Source of the DNA: an uncultured Croceicoccus sp.
GTDB taxonomy: Bacteria > Pseudomonadota > Alphaproteobacteria > Sphingomonadales > Sphingomonadaceae
Assembly (NCBI RefSeq): GCF_947496385.1
Contig: NZ_CANMCP010000001.1
Coordinates: 248,001-312,000, forward strand
Direction: 5' to 3'
Length of the DNA: 64,000 bases
Shown: one piece after another, positions 42,916-56,047 of the stretch
Position numbering within the stretch: position 1 is the stretch's first letter
How the letters are laid out: the number at the start of each line of letters is the position of its first letter
Notes under the pieces: generated by a model
Database searches by the model: none
The model's input: only the letters and a program-made list of their open reading frames with translations
What the model was told of the DNA's origin: nothing
Translations under genes and position numbers: made by a program

Positions 42916-44457
42916 ATGACACCGCCGCCATCCCGCCCTGTCGATCATCTCGCCCTCTGCGGCGAGCGGGGCGCCGATGCCCTCGTGCTGAAGGATCGGA
43001 CGCTGTCCTTTGGAGAGCTGGAGGATGCGGTGGGGCATCTCGCTGCATGGCTCGCGCATCGCGGAGCGCAGGAGGGATGGGACGCCGGTGCACGGGTGGC
43101 GAGCTGGGCGGGGAAGGGCTGGCTTACCTGCATCATGCCGCTCGCCGCGCCGCGGGCGGGGATGGTGCACGTGCCGGTGAACCCGGTGCTGAAGCCTGCG
43201 CAGGTGGCGCATATCCTCGGCGATAGCGGGGCGCGGCTCATCGTCGGAAATTCCGGCCGGCTCGACACGCTGAACGATGCGGACATGCCTGCCGGCTGCG
43301 CTGCGGTCGAGGAGACGGCGTGCGAACATGCGGCGATGGCCGGCGATGCGATGGCGCCGTCCGGTGCCGTGCCCAACGATCTGGCCGCGATCCTTTATAC
43401 CAGCGGTTCGACCGGGCGGCCCAAGGGCGTCATGCTCAGCCATGCGAATCTCTGGCTCGGCGCGGAGGCGGTCGCGTCCTATCTCCGATTGGGAGGCGAC
43501 GACCGAACCTTGTGCGTCCTCCCGCTGGCGTTCGATTACGGCCAGAATCAGCTGCTCTCGACATGGTTCGCAGGCGGTGCGGCGGTGCCGATCGACTATC
43601 TTCTCCCCCGCGCCGTGGTGAAGGCCGTCGCCGACCGGCGCATCACGACGCTTGCCGGGGTTCCGCCGCTCTGGGTGCAATTGCTGGAACAGGAATGGAC
43701 GGCGGAGGCCATCGCGACGCTGCGGCTGCTCACCAATAGCGGCGGCGCGCTGGGCGAACCGCTGGTCCGGGCGTTGCGGGCGCGCTTTCCCGATGCGCGC
43801 CTCTACCCGATGTACGGCCTGACCGAGGCGTTTCGCTCCACCTTTCTCGACCCCGACGAGGTGGATACGAAACCGACGAGCATCGGGCGCGCCATTCCCC
43901 ATGCCGAGATCATCGTGATGCGCGACGACGGAACGCCGGGCGGGCCGGGGGACGAGGGGGAGCTGGTCCATGCAGGCCCGCTCGTCGCGCAGGGCTACTG
44001 GCACGATCCGGCGCGCACCGCCGAGCGTTTCCGGCCTGCGCCGGAGGGCTCGCAATATGGCGGGACGGCGGTCTGGTCCGGCGACAGGGTGCGCATGGGC
44101 GCGGACGGCCTCCTCTATTTCGTGGGGCGGCGTGACGCGCTGATCAAATCCTTCGGTCAGAGGATCAGCCCGCAGGAGATCGAGGATGCGGCGCTGGGCA
44201 CCGGCCTTGTCGCGGAGGCGGTTGCATTCGGCCTGCCCGATGCGCGGGCGGGGCAGGCGATCCACATGGTTGCGCGCGCGGCGCCGGCGGTCGGTTCCGA
44301 TCGTGCGCAGGCCGAATTGCCGAGGGCGATGGCCCGTGCATTGCCGTCCTTCATGCAACCGGCTCATATTCACTGGCGCGACGAATTGCCGCGCGGCGCA
44401 ACCGGAAAGCTGGACCGCACCGGCCTCATCCGCGCAATCGAGAGTGCTGCATCATGA
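42916..44457 (+). CDS. Acyl-CoA ligase (AMP-forming), exosortase-A-associated type
   Basis: Adenylate-forming enzyme of about 513 residues. It has the P-loop-like LYTSGSTGRPKGVMLSH, the A5 region YPMYGLTEAF, the A7-A8 region WSGDRVRMGADGLLYFVGRRD and catalytic C-terminal Lys in PRGATGKLDRTGL. It probably activates a carboxylate and may load it on the divergent ACP. I start at the ATG before TPPPSRPVDHL; ATGs at 42880 and 42904 are alternatives. Its stop overlaps the decarboxylase start by 4 bases. The pairing with this decarboxylase type recalls the PEP-CTERM/exosortase-A-associated ligase family. Confidence 0.85.
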   Translation: MTPPPSRPVDHLALCGERGADALVLKDRTLSFGELEDAVGHLAAWLAHRGAQEGWDAGARVASWAGKGWLTCIMPLAAPRAGMVHVPVNPVLKPAQVAHILGDSGARLIVGNSGRLDTLNDADMPAGCAAVEETACEHAAMAGDAMAPSGAVPNDLAAILYTSGSTGRPKGVMLSHANLWLGAEAVASYLRLGGDDRTLCVLPLAFDYGQNQLLSTWFAGGAAVPIDYLLPRAVVKAVADRRITTLAGVPPLWVQLLEQEWTAEAIATLRLLTNSGGALGEPLVRALRARFPDARLYPMYGLTEAFRSTFLDPDEVDTKPTSIGRAIPHAEIIVMRDDGTPGGPGDEGELVHAGPLVAQGYWHDPARTAERFRPAPEGSQYGGTAVWSGDRVRMGADGLLYFVGRRDALIKSFGQRISPQEIEDAALGTGLVAEAVAFGLPDARAGQAIHMVARAAPAVGSDRAQAELPRAMARALPSFMQPAHIHWRDELPRGATGKLDRTGLIRAIESAAS

Positions 44458-45674
44458 AGAAGCTTGGCCCCATTCCGGACGGATTCACCACGACCGATGG
44501 CGAGCTTGTCATCGACGGCACGCCCGTATCGCATTGGGCGGGGCAGACGCCTGCCTTCGTCTATTCCGCCGCCATGCTCGAACGCCGGGCCGCGATGTTG
44601 TGGTCGGCGATGCCGGACGAACTCGCCATCCATTACGCGATGAAAGCGAACCCGTTTCCGCCCTTGCTGTCGCACATGGCCGGGCTTATCGATGGGTTCG
44701 ACGTCGCCTCGGGGGGTGAATTGCGCCTCGCGCGAGAGGCGGGCGTGGAGCCCGCCCGCATCAGCTTCGCCGGGCCGGGCAAGGACGATGGCGAGCTTTC
44801 CGATGCGATCATGGCCGGCATCACGCTGAACCTCGAATCCGAAGGGGAGGCGCGGCGGGCTTTCGCGATTGGCGAGCGGCTCGGCATCGCGCCGCGGCTC
44901 GCCATCCGGGTCAATCCCGATTTCGATCTGCGCGGTTCGGGAATGAAGATGGGCGGCGGACCGCGCCAGTTCGGCATCGATGCGATCCGCGTTCCCGCGC
45001 TCGTCCGCGAAATCGTGGCGAGCGGGGCGGAATGGCGCGGCTTCCACATCTACGCCGGGAGCCAGGCGCTCGACGCGGCGGCGGTCATCGAAACGCAGGC
45101 CGCCACGATCGCCTTGGCCGCCCGGCTTGGTGAGGAAAGCGGCGTGCCGGTGCCGCATTGCAACCTGGGCGGCGGTTTCGGCATCCCTTATTTTGCGGGG
45201 GACACGCCGCTCGACATCGGCGCGGTCGGTCGGGCGTTGGACGGGCAATTGTCGAAGCGCCCCGCCATCCTGCGCGATACGGCGTTCGCAATCGAACTTG
45301 GCCGGTGGCTCGTCGGGGAGGCCGGGGTCTATCTCTCCCGCGTGCTCGATGTGAAGGAGAGCCACGGAGAAATCTTCGCGGTGATCGACGGGGGCCTGCA
45401 TCACCAGCTTGCGGCATCCGGAAACTTCGGCACCGTGGTCCGGCGCAACTATCCCGTTGCCATCGCCAACCGGATGGACACGCCGGCGATGGAACGTGGA
45501 CAGACCATCGTCGGACGGCTGTGTACGCCGATCGACCGCATTGCGGAAAATGCCGCCCTTCCGCGCATCGAAACGGGCGATACGGTAGCCGTCTTCTGCG
45601 CCGGTGCGTATGGGGCAAGCGCGAGTCCCGCGGAGTTTCTCGGCCATGGAAAGGCCACCGAAATTATCTTTTGA
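44454..45674 (+). CDS. PLP-dependent decarboxylase, exosortase-A-associated type
   Basis: Fold-type-III (alanine-racemase-like) decarboxylase of the DAP/ornithine family, 406 residues. It has the PLP lysine Lys64 in HYAMKANPFPP, the glycine-rich phosphate site NLGGGFGIPYF and C-terminal CAGAYGASASPAEFLGH with the substrate-side motif. LysA proteins have YAVKAN here and usually lie with dap genes; this one is coupled to the acyl-CoA ligase, as in the exosortase-A-associated family. A product amine joined to the activated acyl group is conceivable. The stop lies within a 13-base tandem duplication. Confidence 0.85.
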   Translation: MKKLGPIPDGFTTTDGELVIDGTPVSHWAGQTPAFVYSAAMLERRAAMLWSAMPDELAIHYAMKANPFPPLLSHMAGLIDGFDVASGGELRLAREAGVEPARISFAGPGKDDGELSDAIMAGITLNLESEGEARRAFAIGERLGIAPRLAIRVNPDFDLRGSGMKMGGGPRQFGIDAIRVPALVREIVASGAEWRGFHIYAGSQALDAAAVIETQAATIALAARLGEESGVPVPHCNLGGGFGIPYFAGDTPLDIGAVGRALDGQLSKRPAILRDTAFAIELGRWLVGEAGVYLSRVLDVKESHGEIFAVIDGGLHHQLAASGNFGTVVRRNYPVAIANRMDTPAMERGQTIVGRLCTPIDRIAENAALPRIETGDTVAVFCAGAYGASASPAEFLGHGKATEIIF

Positions 45675-48153: not shown

Positions 48154-48939
48154 TCAGACGAGCCGCTCGGCTTCCATCTTCTTGATCTCGGCGATCGCCT
48201 TGGCGGGGTTGAGCCCCTTGGGGCACACATTCGCGCAGTTCATGATGGTGTGGCAGCGATACAGGCGGAAGGGGTCCTCCAGCTCGTCCAGCCGCTCCCC
48301 GGTCATTTCGTCGCGGCTGTCGGCGAGCCAGCGATAGGCCTGCAGCAGGATCGCCGGGCCAAGGAACTTGTCCGAATTCCACCAGTAGCTCGGGCACGCG
48401 GTGGAGCAGCACGCGCACAGGATGCATTCGTAGAGCCCGTCGAGCTTGTTACGCTGTTCCGGCGATTGCAGCCGCTCCTTGCCCGCAGGGGTCGGCGTGA
48501 CCGTCTGCAGCCACGGGCGGATCGAGGCATATTGCGCGTAGAAATGCGTGAAATCGGGCACCAGATCCTTCACCACGTCCATGTGGGGAAGGGGGGTGAT
48601 CCGCACCTCGCCCGCGCCGCAATCCTCGATCGCGGTGGTGCAGGCGAGCGTGTTGCGCCCGTTAATGTTCATCGAACACGACCCGCAGATCCCCTCGCGG
48701 CAGGAGCGGCGGAAGGTCAGCGAGGGGTCCTGCTCGCTCTTCATCTTGATCAGCGCGTCGAGCACCATCGGCCCGCACGCGTCGAGGTCGATCTCGAACT
48801 TGTCGTAGCGCGGATTTTCCCCGCTGTCGGGGTCGTAGCGATAGACCTTGAATTTCTTCACCCGGCCCGCGGTTTCGGCGGCGTGGGTCTGGCCCTTGCC
48901 GGTGATCTTGCTGTTTGCGGGGAGGGTAAAGGTTGCCAT
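48154..48939 (-). CDS. sdhB: Succinate dehydrogenase iron-sulfur subunit
   Basis: Complex II electron-transfer subunit of 261 residues. It has ligands for [2Fe-2S] ([22 protein letters not shown]), [4Fe-4S] ([16 protein letters not shown]) and [3Fe-4S] ([20 protein letters not shown]). The start is the ATG before [10 protein letters not shown]. The catalytic subunit gene (sdhA) and the anchors (sdhCD) are not next to it; the genes on each side are unrelated. Confidence 0.96.
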
Positions 48940-49002: not shown

Positions 49003-49821
49003 TCAAGGGTGGGGCTGCGTTTCGCCGGCGCGATTCAGCCTTTGGGTAAGGATAGGCTGTGCAATGTCATAGGTCCGGCGGTTGTCGACATCGATGGCGA
49101 GCGCCCCGTCGGTAAAGCTGACCCCCTTCATGCGGATGCCGAACTTGCGGCCGAGCCGTTTCATCGCGGCGTCCATGGTGATGAGCTTTGCCCGCATGAG
49201 CAGGATGTTCACCAGCCCGAACGCCCGCACCATGCGCGACGGGTTGTTCATGAACTGCCCCCCTTCGCGAAACACCTCCGCCGCGGCGAATGCCTTGCGA
49301 TTGGCGAGCGCGTAGATGTTGCAATTGGCGTAGCCTGCGTCCTTCAGCTCGTAAAACCGCCGCTGCCCTTGCGGATGGGCGGCGAGCACGCGTTCGCGCG
49401 TGGCGAGCCCCGCCGCGGCATCCGCATCGTGCATCGCATCGCGCATGGCATCGAACCCTTCGGGGGTGAGCAGGACATTGTCGGCGGTGGTGATGATGAA
49501 CGGGCCGTCGTCGCCTTCCGACGCTGCGATGACCGAATCGACGATCCCCGGCTGCGACGGGACGAGCCGGACCGGACGGTCGGGCCGGTCATAGGGCGCG
49601 ACGACGGCGCCGACCGCGTCATGGGCGTCCGCCTCGACGGAAATGCGCACCTCGGCAATGTCCGGAATGTTCGCCAGCGTGTCGAGGACGTGGGTGATGA
49701 GCGGCGCGCCGCAGATCGGCACCAGGCATTTGTGCGAAACGCCGAATTCGCGGGCGAGCGGGTTCACCACGCCCGTCCGCTGCGCGGCGAGCATCAAGAC
49801 GGTGACGGGCATCCGGCTCAT
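49003..49821 (-). CDS. Nucleotidyltransferase-like protein
   Basis: Protein of 272 residues with a sugar-nucleotide/MobA-type fold. The N-terminal loop, normally LAGGxGxRxxP, reads LMLAAQRTGVVNPLAREFGV, then SHKCLVPICGAPLITHVLD provides the conserved Lys and Pro-Gly-like turn. The metal-binding Asp is in FIITTADNVLL. It may transfer a nucleotide to a small phosphorylated molecule, but the altered loop makes activity uncertain. It is three bases downstream of an ATP-grasp gene and 63 bases upstream of sdhB. Confidence 0.75.
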   Translation of the reverse strand: MSRMPVTVLMLAAQRTGVVNPLAREFGVSHKCLVPICGAPLITHVLDTLANIPDIAEVRISVEADAHDAVGAVVAPYDRPDRPVRLVPSQPGIVDSVIAASEGDDGPFIITTADNVLLTPEGFDAMRDAMHDADAAAGLATRERVLAAHPQGQRRFYELKDAGYANCNIYALANRKAFAAAEVFREGGQFMNNPSRMVRAFGLVNILLMRAKLITMDAAMKRLGRKFGIRMKGVSFTDGALAIDVDNRRTYDIAQPILTQRLNRAGETQPHP

Positions 49822-49824
49822 GGT

Positions 49825-50841
49825 TCAGTAACCCTCGGGCGCAGCCATGACGCCATTGCGGATGAGGCTGTCGGCAAGAATGGTCTCGATAAGCTCCGCC
49901 TGGCTGAAACCGGCGAGGGTGGCGGCGCGGCCGAACACCTTTTCCGACCACAGGTTGCAGTTGAGATTCACCTCGAGGAACGTGATTTCGCCCGTGCTCT
50001 CGTTCACCCGGAATTCGAAGCGGCCATAATCGAACGGGCGATATTCCGCCCACAGCCGCCGGGTCATGTCGGCGATGCGCCCGGCCATCTCCTCGTTCTC
50101 GAACGGGTCGAGCGAATATTTGCCGCTGCGGTCGACGAGGTCGCGCTTTTCATAATAGGTGCGCAGGTGCGAGGGGTCCTGCTGCCGGAAGATCTGCATC
50201 GGCAGGATATGCGGATCGCGGCGCGTCATCACCGGCACCTCGACATCGCTCCCGTCGAGGAAAGGTTCGACGAGCGCGTCGTGCCCTTCGTCGTGGATGG
50301 CCGCGATCGCATTGCGAATGCCGTTCCAGTCGAACGCATCGCGCACGCCCCACGACGCAGACGACGCATTCGGCTTGATCACGTAGCGTTCCGCCTCGGG
50401 GCAGCCGTCTTCGACAACCGGCGCACCCCGGCGGTAGATCGCCCAGGGCGCGGTCGGCACGCCGGCGACGAGCGCGGCGCGCTTCGCCAGATGCTTGTCG
50501 TCGGACAATCCGCGCAGGATCGGGCTCGCCCCAAGATGCGGAATGCCAAGCCGGGCGCACAGCAGCGGGCCCAGCATCTCGGAATTGAAGAACCCCGCGC
50601 GGTTGAGCAGCGGGAACACGAAATCCACCTCCGGATCGTCGAACAGCACTTCGAACCGGTCCGCCAGCTTGAGATTGAGGCCCAGCCCTTCGAGGATCGA
50701 GCGCACCTCGTGGTGATAGACGGCGTGGTTGCCATCCTCGGGATGCAGGCCGCCACCCCACAGGGCATGCTTCGCGATGAACAGGATGCGCACGCGCTCC
50801 TTCGTGATATCGTCGATTTTCAACGGTTCGATCGCTGGCAA
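49825..50841 (-). CDS. ATP-grasp ligase related to D-Ala-D-Ala ligase
   Basis: Protein of 338 residues with a Ddl-like layout: an N-terminal domain (RVRILFIAKHALWGGGLHP), the ATP-grasp central region (RYVIKPNASSASWGV; ALVEPFLDGSDVEVPVM) and the Mg site EITFLEVNLNCNLWSEK. It should ligate a carboxylate to an amine via an acyl phosphate. The true ddl normally lies in the mur cluster and ends with GFT-type motifs, so this is probably a paralogue with another substrate. It is divergent by 60 bases from a PLP-enzyme gene and followed after three bases by the nucleotidyltransferase gene. Confidence 0.8.
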   Translation of the reverse strand: MPAIEPLKIDDITKERVRILFIAKHALWGGGLHPEDGNHAVYHHEVRSILEGLGLNLKLADRFEVLFDDPEVDFVFPLLNRAGFFNSEMLGPLLCARLGIPHLGASPILRGLSDDKHLAKRAALVAGVPTAPWAIYRRGAPVVEDGCPEAERYVIKPNASSASWGVRDAFDWNGIRNAIAAIHDEGHDALVEPFLDGSDVEVPVMTRRDPHILPMQIFRQQDPSHLRTYYEKRDLVDRSGKYSLDPFENEEMAGRIADMTRRLWAEYRPFDYGRFEFRVNESTGEITFLEVNLNCNLWSEKVFGRAATLAGFSQAELIETILADSLIRNGVMAAPEGY

Positions 50842-50901
50842 GTGGAGTCCTTTCTTTACGTCTGGCCTGGCCTCTTAAATAGGCTATAGCCCGCTTCCAA
50901 G

Positions 50902-52413
50902 ATGATTTCGAAAAATGACCTTGGCCGCCCCTCCCTTCCGTCCATGGCGTGGCAGGCGCTGCCCGGCGGCGATGCAGACCGCGACGACGCGATGGAGGCC
51001 ATAAGGCTGATGGCATCGGGCGGCGACGCGCGGATCGTGCTCGACCCGGTGACGGGGCTTAATGCCTATATGTCCGCGCCCTATCCGCGCGACTGTCTCG
51101 CCTATGCGTCCTCCACGGCGAATGACGTTTCGCCCGCGGGTTTTGCGCAAGCGCTGGCGGCGCTGCGCGCGGATGCCGGTTCCTACGCCGCGCGGCTCGA
51201 TACGCTGCGCGACCGGATTCGCGCGGCATATGGCGTCGCGGCGGACCATGCGATCGCCTTTGCTCCGTCGGGCACGGACCTTGAATATGTGGCGCTGGCC
51301 GCCGTGCGCGGGCGCGGGCCGGGGGGTATTCACAACATCCTGCTCGGCGCGGATGAGGTGGGCAGCGGGTGCATCCATTCCGCGCATGGCCGCTATTTCG
51401 CGCGCGAAACGGCGCGCGGCATCGCCGTCGTTCCGGGGGACGAGGTCGACGGCATCGGTCCCGTCGCGCTCGCCGATGTGGCGGTGCGATGCGGCGACGG
51501 GCTGGCCCGGTCGAGCGCCGAGATCGCCGATGCGATCGCGGCGGAGGCGGAGCCGGCCATCGCAGCCGGGCGGCATGTGCTGGTGCATGTGGTGCATGGG
51601 TCGAAGACCGGGCTGATCCTGCCCGAAATGTCCGAGATCCGCGCGTTGAAGGCACGGTTCGGGACGGATGTCAGCTTCGTCATCGACGCCTGCCAGGCCC
51701 GGATCACGTCGTCCTCCATTGCGGCCTATCTCGCGCTCGATGCGATGATATTCCTGACCGGGTCGAAATTCATGGGCGGCCCCCCGTTCAGCGGATTTGC
51801 CATCCTGCCGGCCGGCGTCGCCCAAAACGCGGCGTCGGTCCCGACAGGCTTTGCCGACATATTCCGCCGGGACGAATGGCCGCGCGAATGGGCGGGCCGG
51901 GACGTACTGATGCGGGAGGACAATTTCGGGCTTTGGCTCCGGCTCGAAGTGTCGATCTTCGAACTGGAACGATGGCAGGCGACGCCCATGGCGCGAATCG
52001 AGGGGGTCATCGCCGCCTTTCGCGATGCCGTGACCGAACGGATCGTCACGCCGCTTGGGCTGTCGAAGGTCGTCGCCTATCCGCCGGGGCACGCGGAAAC
52101 AGCGGAAAACCATCCGGTCGCGATGCGCACGCTGGTCACTCTCGACATCAGCAGCCTGCCCGCCATCCGGAGTTTCGCGGATGCGCAAACGCTGCATCGC
52201 CGCATGGCCGACGCCGGGATCAGGCTGGGTCAGCCGGTGAAATCGGTGCGCATGGCCGATGGCGGCTGGGGCGGGACGTTGCGGATCGGGCTGTCCATGC
52301 CGCAGATCACCCGGCTTGCGCAGTGCGAACAGGACGAGGCCGGCCGCATGCTGCGCGCCGATATGGAGCGTATCGCAGACGCCATTCGCAGCCATGCGAT
52401 GACGCCGGAATAG
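50902..52413 (+). CDS. PLP-dependent fold-type-I enzyme of unknown substrate
   Basis: Protein of 503 residues with aminotransferase class V/cysteine-desulfurase-like topology. The cofactor Asp262 is in FVIDACQAR and the Schiff-base Lys289 in FLTGSKFMGGPPFSG; FAPSGTDLEYVAL corresponds to the phosphate-binding turn. It is longer than usual for the family. It could be a transaminase, desulfurase or decarboxylase; the sequence does not decide. It is divergent from the ATP-grasp gene, sharing a 60-base promoter region, and followed 10 bases later by an SDR gene. Confidence 0.78.
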   Translation: MISKNDLGRPSLPSMAWQALPGGDADRDDAMEAIRLMASGGDARIVLDPVTGLNAYMSAPYPRDCLAYASSTANDVSPAGFAQALAALRADAGSYAARLDTLRDRIRAAYGVAADHAIAFAPSGTDLEYVALAAVRGRGPGGIHNILLGADEVGSGCIHSAHGRYFARETARGIAVVPGDEVDGIGPVALADVAVRCGDGLARSSAEIADAIAAEAEPAIAAGRHVLVHVVHGSKTGLILPEMSEIRALKARFGTDVSFVIDACQARITSSSIAAYLALDAMIFLTGSKFMGGPPFSGFAILPAGVAQNAASVPTGFADIFRRDEWPREWAGRDVLMREDNFGLWLRLEVSIFELERWQATPMARIEGVIAAFRDAVTERIVTPLGLSKVVAYPPGHAETAENHPVAMRTLVTLDISSLPAIRSFADAQTLHRRMADAGIRLGQPVKSVRMADGGWGGTLRIGLSMPQITRLAQCEQDEAGRMLRADMERIADAIRSHAMTPE

Positions 52414-52423
52414 CAGGGGACGG

Positions 52424-53188
52424 ATGACGAACGCAGAGCCAGCGCGCGAACGCAGCTGCGTCATTTTCGGCGCGTCGGGCGGCGTCGGCGATGCGATGTG
52501 CCGCCAGCTCGCCGCGAGCGGGCCATTCGCCCGCATCTATGCAGGAGCGCGAAGCGGCACGGTGCCCGATAGTTCCGTGTCCGCCCCCGGCAAAGCGTCG
52601 ATCACCCCCTTTGTATTCGATTTGACCGAAGAGGCGGGCATTGCCGCCATCGCGGAGCGCGTCGCACGCGAATCCGCGCCCGAAATGGTGATCGTCGCGA
52701 CCGGCCTGTTGCAGCGGGAGCCGGACATCCGCCCCGAACGCAGCTGGCGCACGATCGACCCTGCGGCGATGGCGGAGATGTTTGCGGTCAACACGATCGG
52801 CCCGGCGATCATCGGGAAGCATTTCCTCCCCCTCCTTCGCCATGCGGAGCGGCCGGTGTTTGCCGCGCTTTCGGCCCGGGTGGGATCGATCGCGGACAAC
52901 GGGCTGGGCGGTTGGCACAGCTATCGCGCGTCCAAAGCGGCGCTGAACATGGTGCTGCGCAATTTCGGGATCGAGCTTCACCGCCGCAACCGCGAGGGGA
53001 TCGTGGTCGCGCTTCACCCCGGCACGGTGGAAACCGCGCTGTCCGAACCGTTTCGCGGCAACGTGCCCGATCGGCAGCTTTTCACGCCGGAGCATTCCGC
53101 GCGCTGCCTGCTGTCGGTGATCGACGGGCTGACCGCGGCGGACAATGGCGGGTTTTTCGCCTGGGACGGTTCGCGCATCGCGTGGTAG
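52424..53188 (+). CDS. Short-chain dehydrogenase (CsgA-like)
   Basis: SDR of 254 residues. The cofactor motif is FGASGGVG, the catalytic Ser is in FAALSARVGSI and the active pair is Tyr167-x3-Lys171 (YRASKAAL). The short C-terminus and the HPGTVETALSEPF loop match the C-factor/CsgA-like SDRs. It lies 10 bases after the PLP-enzyme gene, so it could reduce or oxidise an intermediate of the same pathway; alternatively it is a general housekeeping SDR. A strong terminator follows. Confidence 0.85.
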   Translation: MTNAEPARERSCVIFGASGGVGDAMCRQLAASGPFARIYAGARSGTVPDSSVSAPGKASITPFVFDLTEEAGIAAIAERVARESAPEMVIVATGLLQREPDIRPERSWRTIDPAAMAEMFAVNTIGPAIIGKHFLPLLRHAERPVFAALSARVGSIADNGLGGWHSYRASKAALNMVLRNFGIELHRRNREGIVVALHPGTVETALSEPFRGNVPDRQLFTPEHSARCLLSVIDGLTAADNGGFFAWDGSRIAW

Positions 53189-53272: not shown

Positions 53273-56047
53273 TTATCCGAACGTGCGCTGCCACCAGCCG
53301 CGCCGGGGCGGCTCCTGCGACGTGGACTCGGTTTCGTCCTTGCCTTCCTCGGCCTTCGGCTCCGCGGGGGCGGCCTCGCTCGCCGCGGGTGCGGGTGCAG
53401 GGGCTTCTTCGCGCTCTGCAGGCTGCGCCTTGGTTGCCGCATCGTCGGCTGTCGAAGACGACGCCTGATCGGGCTCGCCAGCGTCGGGCGCGGCGTCGGC
53501 CTTCTTCTTGCGAGGGCGGCGCGGCTTCTTGGGCTTGGGCGCATCGTCCGCGGCTGTTTCGGCCGCGGACTCGTCTGCGGTCCCGCTTGCGCTCACCTCG
53601 GTCTTCTTGCGACGGGGGGAGCGCCGCGACTTCGCTTTCGGCTTCTCCTGCTCGGCATCGGGCGTGCTGTCCTCGGCAAGGCCATCGGATGCCGGCGCGT
53701 CATCGGTTGACGTTTCGGATGCAGGCGCTTCGGGCGCGGGCGTCCGGGGTGCACGCGTTTCGTCCTGCCCGTTCACCGCATCCGCTGCCTCCGCGTTGCC
53801 GCCCTCGGACTGATCGTCCGATTTGCGGCGACGGCGACGGCGCTTGCGCGGCTTGTCCTCATCCGCTCCGCCGTGCTGCGTTGCGGCGCCATGATCCGTA
53901 TCGCCGTCGGTATCGCCATCGCGATCGGATGCGTCGTCGCTGTCGCCATCGTCCTGCGCATCACGCGATTCGTCGCCGTTCCGGTTGCCCCGGTTGCGGC
54001 GACCGCCACGGCGGCGGCGGCGGCGCTTGCGGCGACTGCCGTTGTCGTCCTCGCCCCTTTCGTCGTCGCCCTTGTCATCGTCGCTGCGGTCGTCGTCGCG
54101 CTGCGTTTCCGTCTCGGCGCCGGTTTCTTCCTCTTCTTCGTCCTCGTCATCCTCGACATCGTCGGCGTCGAGAATATCGTCCTGAATCGGTTCGAACTTC
54201 GGCGCAAAGGTCGGCTTCGGACCCGAGGAGCTGGCGCGCATCTTCGCGCCCTCGTTCTCGCCTTCGGGAAGGACCTCGACCATGACGCCGTAACGCTCCT
54301 CGATCTCGGCGAGGTCGGCGCGCTTGGAATTGAGGAGATAGACCGCCGCTTCCGTGCTGGCATAGAGGCTGATGGTGCTGCCCTTGCCCTTGGCCGCCTC
54401 GTCCTCGATCATGCGCAGGGCGGAGAGGCCCGCACTCGACGCCGTGCGCACGAGGCCGGTGCCGTCGCAATGCGGGCATTCGCGGGTCGTCGCCTCCAGC
54501 ACGCCGGTGCGCAGGCGCTGACGGCTCATCTCCATCAGGCCAAAGCCGGAAATGCGGCCGACCTGGATGCGCGCGCGGTCGTTTTTCAGCGAATCCTTCA
54601 TGCACTTCTCGACCTTGCGGATCGAGGAGTTGTTTTCCATGTCGATGAAGTCGATCACGACCAGCCCGGCCATGTCACGCAGGCGCAATTGCCGCGCGAT
54701 TTCCTTCGCCGCCTCCAGATTGGTGGCGAGCGCGGTCTGCTCAATCCCGTGCTCCTTGGTCGAGCGGCCCGAGTTGATGTCGATCGACACCAGCGCCTCG
54801 GTCGGGTTGATCACGAGATAGCCGCCCGATTTCAGCTGTACGACCGGATCGTACATCGCGGTCAGCTGATCCTCCGCGCCATAGCGCTGAAACAGGGGGA
54901 CGGGGTCCGCATATTGCTTCACCCGGCGCGCATGGCTGGGCATGAGCAGCTTCATGAACTGCTTCGCCGCCTTGTAGCCTTCGGGCCCTTCGACGACGAC
55001 TTCCTCGATCTCGCGATTGTAGATGTCGCGGATCGCGCGCTTCACAAGGTCGCTGTCCGAATGGATCGGCGCAGGGGCGCTGGCCTGCATGGTGCGTTCG
55101 CGGATCTCGTCCCAGAGGCGGGCGAGATAGTCGAAATCGCGCTTGATCTCGGTCTTGGTGCGCGACAGGCCGGCGGTGCGCACGATGCATCCCATCGACC
55201 GCGGCAGGTTCATTTCCGACACGATCTGCTTCAGCCGCTTGCGATCGGCGGCGCTGCTGATCTTGCGGGAGATGCCGCCGCCGTGGCTGCTGTTGGGCAT
55301 GAGCACGCAGTAACGCCCGGCGAGCGAGAGATAGGTGGTGAGCGCCGCACCCTTGTTGCCGCGCTCTTCCTTCACGACCTGCACAAGCAGGACCTGGCGC
55401 CGCTGAATGACGTCCTGGATCTTGTAACGGCGGCGCAGGGCGAGCCGTTTCGCGCGGGCTTCGTCGGCGGCGCGTGCCTTGCCGCCACCCTGGCGGCGGC
55501 CCTTGCCGCGGGCACGGCGGGGGCGGCGATTGTCGCCCTCGTCATCGCCATCGTCGTCGGAACCGCCCTCGACGGCGCCGTCCTCGATCGTGGCGACGTC
55601 GTCCTTTTCGCTGGTGTCGACCTCGGTCAGCCCGTCGCCGGCCATTTCGTCGGCAAGCGCGTCACTGCTTTCGTCGTCGTCGCGATCGTCGTGATCGTGG
55701 CCGTCGTCGCCCGAATCGTCGTCATCGTCGGAACGCAGGCGCGCCTCTTCCTCGGCGTGTTCCTGCTCCTCGGCGAGCAGGGCATCGCGGTCCTGCTTCG
55801 GAATCTGGTAATAATCGGGGTGGATTTCGCTAAAGGCGAGGAACCCGTGGCGATTGCCGCCGAAATCGACGAAGGCCGCCTGAAGAGAGGGTTCGACCCG
55901 CGTTACCTTCGCGAGGTAGATATTGCCTTTTATCTGCTTGTGGTCGCTCGATTCGAAATCGAACTCTTCAATCCTGTTGCCCTTCAGCACCGCCACCCGG
56001 GTTTCTTCCTGGTGGCGCGCATCGATCAGCATGCGCGTTGTCATCAA
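53273..56047 (-). CDS. rne: Ribonuclease E
   Basis: Main endoribonuclease of mRNA decay and RNA processing, 924 residues. The S1 domain (GNIYLAKVTRVEPSLQAAFVDF) is split by a long acidic-then-basic insertion at about 85-207, typical of alphaproteobacterial enzymes. The catalytic core has the Mg-site Asp residues in VVIDFIDM and NDRARIQ, and the Zn-link CPHCDGTG (Cys524, Cys527) for tetramer formation. The C-terminal third is disordered, with alternating Asp/Glu and Arg/Lys blocks and Ala/Pro tracts, the degradosome scaffold and RNA-binding part, ending in RRGWWQRTFG. Start Met1 or Met2. Confidence 0.96.
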   Translation of the reverse strand: MMTTRMLIDARHQEETRVAVLKGNRIEEFDFESSDHKQIKGNIYLAKVTRVEPSLQAAFVDFGGNRHGFLAFSEIHPDYYQIPKQDRDALLAEEQEHAEEEARLRSDDDDDSGDDGHDHDDRDDDESSDALADEMAGDGLTEVDTSEKDDVATIEDGAVEGGSDDDGDDEGDNRRPRRARGKGRRQGGGKARAADEARAKRLALRRRYKIQDVIQRRQVLLVQVVKEERGNKGAALTTYLSLAGRYCVLMPNSSHGGGISRKISSAADRKRLKQIVSEMNLPRSMGCIVRTAGLSRTKTEIKRDFDYLARLWDEIRERTMQASAPAPIHSDSDLVKRAIRDIYNREIEEVVVEGPEGYKAAKQFMKLLMPSHARRVKQYADPVPLFQRYGAEDQLTAMYDPVVQLKSGGYLVINPTEALVSIDINSGRSTKEHGIEQTALATNLEAAKEIARQLRLRDMAGLVVIDFIDMENNSSIRKVEKCMKDSLKNDRARIQVGRISGFGLMEMSRQRLRTGVLEATTRECPHCDGTGLVRTASSAGLSALRMIEDEAAKGKGSTISLYASTEAAVYLLNSKRADLAEIEERYGVMVEVLPEGENEGAKMRASSSGPKPTFAPKFEPIQDDILDADDVEDDEDEEEEETGAETETQRDDDRSDDDKGDDERGEDDNGSRRKRRRRRRGGRRNRGNRNGDESRDAQDDGDSDDASDRDGDTDGDTDHGAATQHGGADEDKPRKRRRRRRKSDDQSEGGNAEAADAVNGQDETRAPRTPAPEAPASETSTDDAPASDGLAEDSTPDAEQEKPKAKSRRSPRRKKTEVSASGTADESAAETAADDAPKPKKPRRPRKKKADAAPDAGEPDQASSSTADDAATKAQPAEREEAPAPAPAASEAAPAEPKAEEGKDETESTSQEPPRRGWWQRTFG

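Follow-up and report, generated by a model that had tools for sequence, protein, structure and literature searches.

Sphingomonads are known for carrying sphingolipids in place of lipopolysaccharide. For the phosphosphingolipid region of Caulobacter, PMC11324152 describes that mutants in CC_1153, a gene likened to CofC, and in CC_1152 lose ceramide diphosphoglycerate (CPG2); furthermore, CCNA_01210 is presented as the phosphoglycerate cytidylyltransferase CpgD in PMC12275187. In this study, a stretch of 64,000 nucleotides from an uncultured Croceicoccus sp. (contig NZ_CANMCP010000001.1, positions 248,001 to 312,000; the window) was analyzed, in which four genes are the only ones called between sdhB and rne. 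They encode a MobA-like nucleotidyltransferase (NT), an ATP-grasp ligase with the fold of D-alanine–D-alanine ligase (Ddl), named AG here, an unclassified pyridoxal phosphate (vitamin B6) enzyme, named PLP here, and a short-chain dehydrogenase (SDR). It is well supported that AG, PLP, and NT form one biosynthetic module, and a joint action of the three enzymes in one pathway is considered very probable. No description of this module was found in the literature (titles and beginnings of abstracts of the papers listed by one open library), and, as the original prediction had proposed, no textbook match was found for it.

To describe the distribution of the module, GTDB contigs were scanned with AG, and the best 80 of 243 relatives, featuring 64–95% identity, were kept (the 80 AG loci). 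Where a genus name is given, it points to the Sphingomonadales, and the closest among these named loci originates from Croceicoccus hydrothermalis (95%), although very near records may be excluded. A PLP open reading frame (ORF; match of more than 150 residues) was identified in 72 of the 80 loci, or in 71 under a 60%-coverage criterion, which drops L093; the remaining eight lie at contig ends (L067, L070, and L075), contain only a remnant (L101 and L105), or gave no match within the fetched stretch (L077, L080, and L119). Searched by tblastn, the same loci gave PLP matches in 76, SDR matches in 32, and NT matches in 26 cases. Wherever both ORFs were present (79 loci: 71 of the best 80, the window, and L010–L016, with L010/L068, L012/L095, and L014/L134 representing the same genomes twice), AG and PLP occupied opposite strands, 77 of these pairs being divergent as judged from the ORF ends; in L122 and L136, the AG ORF is extended upstream. 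The pair also recurs in seven relatives of the order, with identities of 60–76% for AG and 43–55% for PLP. According to the gene calls, the AG contexts comprise sdhB together with rne (39 loci), sdhB (21), rplJ/rplL (10), rne only (1), and others (9), one of the latter, L117, showing sdhB by tblastn. NT was found on the AG strand in 29 out of 29 loci with both ORFs and directly downstream of AG in 28 of them (25 of the best 80, the window, L016, and L054), while in L011 it follows beyond PLP. PLP itself is patchily distributed, being detected in 8 out of 147 genomes sampled for the order, in 56 out of 397 family genomes, and in 6 out of 385 class genomes; the latter six include the window genome and one family member.

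In a tree of 70 NT rows, the 31 AG-linked NTs and five detached ones formed one 36-row clade (support 100/99). Four of the detached NTs reside in genomes encoding AG and PLP elsewhere (G108, G127, G091, and G065), and the fifth in G019, in which no clear AG is present; the tree does not include the second NT copies of L123 and L124. Distances of AG and PLP were correlated in a mirror-tree comparison (r 0.76; partial 0.60 given SdhB, 57 loci), which is supportive only, because the correlation between AG and SdhB (0.77) is as high. It is highly improbable that AG, PLP, and NT represent unrelated neighbors that stay together by chance or through a shared promoter. AG does occur without PLP (L077, L080, L119, and genome G035), and NT is often unlinked, but the AG/PLP pairing recurs in several chromosomal contexts, and an NT of the AG clade was present in 8 out of 9 AG-positive versus 1 out of 11 AG-negative genomes (20 hand-picked genomes searched for AG and NT, clade membership read from the tree; Fisher p 9e-4, uncorrected for phylogeny). 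The small conserved biosynthetic gene set originally proposed is thus upheld for these three genes, whose association was neither confined to close relatives nor accompanied by solitary copies of each gene with unrelated known functions.

The fourth gene behaves differently. SDR was called in 14 of the 15 sdhB–rne intervals read (none in G533), only one of which, that of G559, carries NT, AG, and PLP. In G559, it shares the interval with the module and, in nine congeners, with a different cassette; in G012 and G019, it is accompanied by neither of them; moreover, it lies beside a second-type AG in G539 and G527, in the latter case together with NT. Since SDR is called in these intervals with or without AG and PLP, it is probably a local resident gene outside the module, and membership was rejected, also in view of the tblastn result for the AG loci given above. 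The grouping of all four genes into one set was therefore not confirmed, the independent occurrence of SDR away from AG and PLP being the part of the refuting evidence that was encountered.

Table 1. Features of the sdhB–rne region, given in positions of the window; the neighbor names sdhB and rne, as well as zapE, represent our own reading of the sequences and are presumptive.
Feature	Positions	Strand	Size and start	Basis
NT: MobA-like nucleotidyltransferase	49003-49821	-	272 aa	PF12804
AG: Ddl-fold ATP-grasp ligase	49825-50841	-	338 aa, TTG start	PF07478 + predicted fold
Intergenic gap, divergent AG/PLP	50842-50901	.		sequence
PLP: unclassified fold-type-I (class V-like) PLP enzyme	50902-52413	+	503 aa	predicted structure
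SDR: short-chain dehydrogenase	52424-53188	+	254 aa	PF00106
sdhB	48154-48939	-		name read from sequence
rne	53273-56047	-		name read from sequence

The ORFs, their strands, and the gaps of 3 bases (NT/AG), 60 bases (AG/PLP), and 10 bases (PLP/SDR) were recovered from the ORF list and the sequence as originally described, and the four family calls were confirmed by Pfam and, for PLP, by the fold of an AlphaFold2 model. Regarding the divergent promoter postulated between AG and PLP, the 60-base gap is real, whereas the promoter was inferred only, a sigma-70-type scan of the gap having returned no sigma-70-like site. The gap may exceed 60 bases, because the model is poor over the N-terminal ~20 residues of PLP and several relatives begin later. 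Gene maps were produced with a purpose-built gene caller rather than a published one, AG and PLP being checked by ORF-level searches.

AG matched PF07478 (Dala_Dala_lig_C) with 49.2 bits (cut-off 24), and its AlphaFold2 model (predicted local distance difference test (pLDDT) 89.8) was superimposed on DdlB 8evz_C with a Z score of 30.5 and a root-mean-square deviation (rmsd) of 2.7 over 300 aligned residues, which bears out the earlier description of a Ddl-like protein. It shares the fold and the ATP-grasp core with Ddl, and Lys116, Lys156, Arg274, Glu290, and Asn292, all invariant, align with DdlB residues. However, the curated model TIGR01205 does not identify AG as a Ddl (63.1 bits, cut-off 245.65). 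In the alignment with Pseudomonas DdlB, it differs by the replacements His to Asn80, Tyr to Arg233, Gly to Asn296, Thr to Trp298, and Ser to Lys301, and all five AG residues are invariant in 45 out of 45 AGs as well as in nine out of nine divergent AGs (seven second copies and those of G527 and G539). According to structural work on Ddl, the Tyr and Ser positions of DdlB contact the acceptor D-Ala. Since these two positions correspond to the invariant basic residues Arg233 and Lys301, the sequence suggests an acceptor more acidic than D-alanine.

The Ddl fold also lends itself to an explanation in terms of cell-wall D-amino-acid chemistry, in which PLP would be a class V racemase/epimerase, modeled on CefD, an enzyme of this type, and AG a Ddl variant forming an alternative peptidoglycan dipeptide. 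A PLP relative of Neorhizobium adjoining dat and dmpA, two genes with D-amino-acid annotations, fits this explanation, as does the Z score obtained with DdlB. On the other hand, AG remains far below the Ddl cut-off, its acceptor-site positions differ, the scheme has no place for NT, and PLP (counted here instead of AG) occurs in only 56 of the 397 family genomes, so that this alternative is regarded as improbable.

PLP was not assigned to any Pfam or NCBIfam family at E ≤ 0.001. Eight PLP members searched at E ≤ 10 gave only three scattered, chance-level Pfam matches, PF00266 not being among them, and a PLP profile found no match among PDB sequences up to E 10. The single sequence retrieved only a cerebellin/glutamate-receptor chain by phmmer (E 0.016), which was taken as a chance match. 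The AlphaFold2 model, built from a 62-sequence alignment (pLDDT 91.8), was more informative. VIA-align placed a NifS-type class V enzyme first (4ixo_A, Z 24.7, rmsd 3.3, 339 aligned residues, 12% identity), with 2-aminoethylphosphonate (AEP) transaminases slightly lower (7e7g, Z 23.3), while the top Foldseek match was the carbon-sulfoxide lyase 8irk_D (E 3.7e-13, 17% identity). In an hhalign comparison against 11 sequences of the cysteine-desulfurase type, taken from five genomes (E 1.4e-4, probability 52%), PLP aligned K289, D262, and Q265 with the catalytic-type Lys, Asp, and Gln of the desulfurases. All three are invariant in 15 diverse PLP members, Lys289 being the predicted Schiff-base residue. 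With regard to the catalytic Cys that cysteine desulfurases carry on the C-terminal loop, the alignment extends up to residue 319. Based on its model, PLP is thus a fold-type-I/class V-like enzyme of an unclassified family, sharing the fold and the Lys289, Asp262, and Gln265 residues with cysteine desulfurases, but differing from class V enzymes in the low identities given above, in the missing PF00266 match, and in an N-terminal GGDxR...NxY motif invariant in 15 members; furthermore, EVGSGC takes the place of EHHSN in the aligned desulfurase.

Outside the order, PLP relatives were found in four class genomes and 33 plasmid records. In G503, G205, Rhizobium tumorigenes, and R. rhododendri, PLP is accompanied by a probable ATP-grasp protein and a pyridoxal decarboxylase, and in G223 by a fused decarboxylase/ligase; the R. 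tumorigenes and R. rhododendri loci (L159 and L166) are near-copies. This triad resembles the module in placing a homologous PLP beside a probable ATP-dependent ligase, but differs in that the triad ligase is of another, only faintly recognizable family without a Pfam match (PDB RimK E 0.011, Ddl E 0.018), a decarboxylase is present, and no NT was recognized. A relationship between the triad protein and AG was rejected (hhalign probability 0.2%, E 0.27). In Sinorhizobium medicae and R. jaguaris, PLP directly follows nonribosomal peptide synthetase (NRPS) genes with a phosphopantetheinyl transferase (PPTase) gene nearby. It stands alone between GST-like and dct-type genes (by eye) in R. tropici CIAT 899 and relatives, and in other company on R. 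jaguaris pRCCGE525c. Because PLP is often, though not always, located near amide-forming enzymes of three unrelated kinds, the gene neighborhoods suggest a role in providing a building block of the amino-acid type. As separate observations, L151:11124-13778 encodes a pyridoxal decarboxylase fused to the ATP-grasp-like member of this rhizobial triad, and in L158 and L162, both on conjugative-typed plasmids, very long NRPS genes are directly followed by PLP, annotated as hypothetical protein.

These neighborhoods could also be read in favor of a soluble or secreted dipeptide-like metabolite, with NT catalyzing an activating or tailoring step and no lipid being involved. Bacilysin-like logic likewise combines a PLP enzyme with an ATP-grasp amino-acid ligase. 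The NRPS-associated relatives, the five loci with a probable ATP-grasp protein and decarboxylase (one of them a fusion, two of them near-copies), and the patchy occurrence of PLP within the family are consistent with such a product. By contrast, inspection of the sdhB–rne interval of the window (by eye, no model search) revealed neither a peptide exporter nor a resistance gene or carrier protein; what recurs instead are flippases of the MOP type and an NT family that is elsewhere found in lipid-type clusters. A dipeptide-like product is considered rather unlikely.

A modification of flagellin or another surface protein was weighed as well, since the genes around the PLP relatives of G503 and G205 were read by eye as those of flagellins, FlbT, FlaF, and the hook, a flagellin-like gene is situated ~8 kb from the PLP relative of G476, and the detached NT of G108 (C5:16346-17134) is found just after flhA (C5:13515-15473). 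However, no flagellar gene was recognized beside the sphingomonad AG/PLP pairs in the maps (by eye only), and FlhA was detected in 43 of the 56 PLP-positive family genomes as compared to 10 of the 19 PLP-negative ones listed in the 397-genome survey (Fisher p 0.078). Since 13 PLP-positive genomes lack FlhA, the module is not tied to flagella; flagellin modification as a general role is weakened accordingly, and this explanation appears quite improbable.

NT was assigned to PF12804 with 38.2 bits (cut-off 27). The canonical loop of MobA-like NTP transferases is LAGGxSxRMG, which NT lacks; as originally noticed, the G-rich signature loop is changed, reading LAAQRTG in the window and being of the LAG(x)R type in most relatives. 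In the tree, the window NT is placed outside a 32-row clade comprising NTs of sphingolipid-type clusters and of an alternative cassette. Elsewhere in the Alphaproteobacteria, this other clade was examined in 20 fetched loci, NT being called in 17 of them (L252, L260, and L264, without a called NT, were left out of the counts and included in the tree). Here, an LptF/LptG cluster was identified in 14 loci (confirmed on L245), a gene in the place of CC_1154/CerS, without Pfam match, in 14, and a diacylglycerol kinase (DAGK)-type kinase in 8, the NT neighbors encoding acyl carrier protein (ACP), Aminotran_1_2, LptF/LptG, DAGK-type, and phosphoesterase proteins. This gene layout corresponds to the one given in PMC11324152 for the Caulobacter phosphosphingolipid region, and the loci were designated CC_1153 type by gene order and by that description. 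L261, one of the 17, is unlike the others: its two NTs fall on the AG-clade side of the tree, and no sphingolipid gene was recognized beside them. As for genome G000, only its own NT was a strong match (1.3e-112) among three NT-family matches, the two others scoring below all rows of the listing, the last of which is near 4e-7; an NT of the sphingolipid clade therefore seems to be absent from it.

A related cassette, which resembles the Caulobacter genes for ceramide diphosphoglycerate, occupies the chromosomal site of the module in the window genus. PLP was present in two of the 11 genomes (G000 and G559), and the sdhB–rne interval of all nine PLP-negative congeners contained the other cassette, consisting of SDR, an NT of the other clade (27–31% identity to the window NT), a protein of 357–417 aa, a HIT-size protein of 138–149 aa, and a flippase-type gene (48–54% identity to that of L062), as well as an NTP-transferase-like gene of 245–250 aa called in seven and a HAD gene in six of the nine. 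On L208, Pfam recognized CDP-OH_P_transf, HIT, NTP_transferase, Polysacc_synt, HAD, and NTP_transf_3; the Pfam search covered this cassette, and unlabeled genes of the others were equated by eye. Compared with the Caulobacter CPG2 genes, the module thus shares PF12804 between its NT and those of the sphingolipid-type clusters, and a related cassette is found at its site in nine congeners. It differs, however, in that the window NT belongs to another clade, in that neither a CDP-alcohol transferase nor a COG1213-like cytidylyltransferase was found by Pfam among the four window genes, and in that AG and PLP have no counterpart among the genes given in PMC11324152.

In 7 out of the 80 AG loci, a second AG was located on the far side of PLP (L069, L078, L081, L093, L101, L102, and L103), with 48–61% identity to the window AG and, in L101, beside the PLP remnant only. 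G527 and G539 carry a second-copy AG of the L069 type and no PLP. A flippase gene adjoins PLP or the second AG in seven loci: it lies downstream of PLP on the PLP strand in L118, L120, L131, L123, and L124, and next to the second AG in L102 and L103. Two of the flippases were searched and gave MOP-flippase or MATE/Wzx-like matches that stay under the curated thresholds. Behind each of the detached NTs in L055, L056, and L057, there is likewise a gene belonging to this flippase cluster (Pfam Polysacc_synt on L056). As a side observation, the second AGs adjoining the flippase gene beside the PLP/AG/NT set (L102:6376-7401 and L103:7318-8343) are deeply diverged (48% identity).

Taken together, it is tentatively proposed, with rather less than even confidence, that AG, PLP, and NT, joined in a minority of loci by the flippase or a second AG, make an activated amino-acid-derived group for an envelope lipid. 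PLP would make or convert an unusual amino acid, and AG would activate a carboxylate with ATP and form an amide bond with an acidic partner. NT would couple a nucleotide to a phosphate of this product or of its partner, a putative transferase would place the group on a membrane lipid, and the flippase would turn over the lipid bearing it. The proposal builds on linkage, co-occurrence, predicted folds, and invariant positions, from which we infer all substrates as well as the lipid destination. For the envelope lipid as destination, the chances are judged to be slightly short of even; envelope modification, already considered in the original prediction, is possible. The polar head group of a sphingolipid would be the likeliest destination, because the other NT clade resides in sphingolipid-type clusters and a head-group-type cassette takes the same site in congeners. 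A more specific version, rated as speculative and improbable, envisages a new class of sphingolipid head groups: AG would link an amino acid supplied by PLP to a phosphoglycerate-like acid via an amide, NT would convert the product into a CDP- or GDP-activated amino-acid conjugate, and transfer to ceramide would yield a phosphosphingolipid bearing an amino acid instead of ceramide diphosphoglycerate, two-AG loci producing a longer head group with two amides.

Several findings weigh against this envelope-lipid pathway. No transferase or lipid gene was recognized in the module, flippase adjacency is a minority trait (7 out of 80 loci), and the window NT, outside the sphingolipid clade, shows only 29.7% identity to the NT of L208. 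L077, L080, and L119 contain AG without an adjacent PLP, G035 encodes AG and no PLP, and PLP exists without a window-type AG outside the order, so the pair is not strictly inseparable. In addition, G059 encodes AG and PLP, yet its only NT falls into the other clade, G019 carries an AG-clade NT without AG, NT matches of both clades are present in G080 and G035, and G108 has a second NT match (30%). Finally, the cassette swap within the genus may represent one event, as G000 and G559 are near-copies, and the sdhB–rne site may simply tolerate insertions.

If the proposed pathway holds true, amino-acid chemistry would be added to bacterial envelope lipids, and an unclassified PLP family, which also occurs beside rhizobial NRPS genes, would be given a place. 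Congeneric strains with alternative cassettes at one site make lipid profiles directly comparable. Even with a wrong destination, AG and PLP represent two conserved enzyme families for which no assigned substrate was found.

With respect to the wider surroundings, a defense-system identity was dropped, as PADLOC gave zero matches for NT, AG, PLP, and SDR at E ≤ 0.001. An exosortase-A-associated pyridoxal-dependent decarboxylase is encoded at 44454-45674 of the window, ~3.3 kb from the module (TIGR03099, 543.4 bits versus 478.45), and within ~8 kb of the AG/PLP pair an XrtA-system amidotransferase was found in L010 and exosortase A in L013. In L123 and L124, a second NT together with thymidylate-kinase-like and isoprenylcysteine-methyltransferase-like genes (by eye) is located near the module. 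Furthermore, an alpha/beta-hydrolase gene recurs between rne and AG/PLP in L010, L066, L068, L071, L093, L210, and L211, matching Pfam Abhydrolase on L211 and appearing haloalkane-dehalogenase-like by eye.

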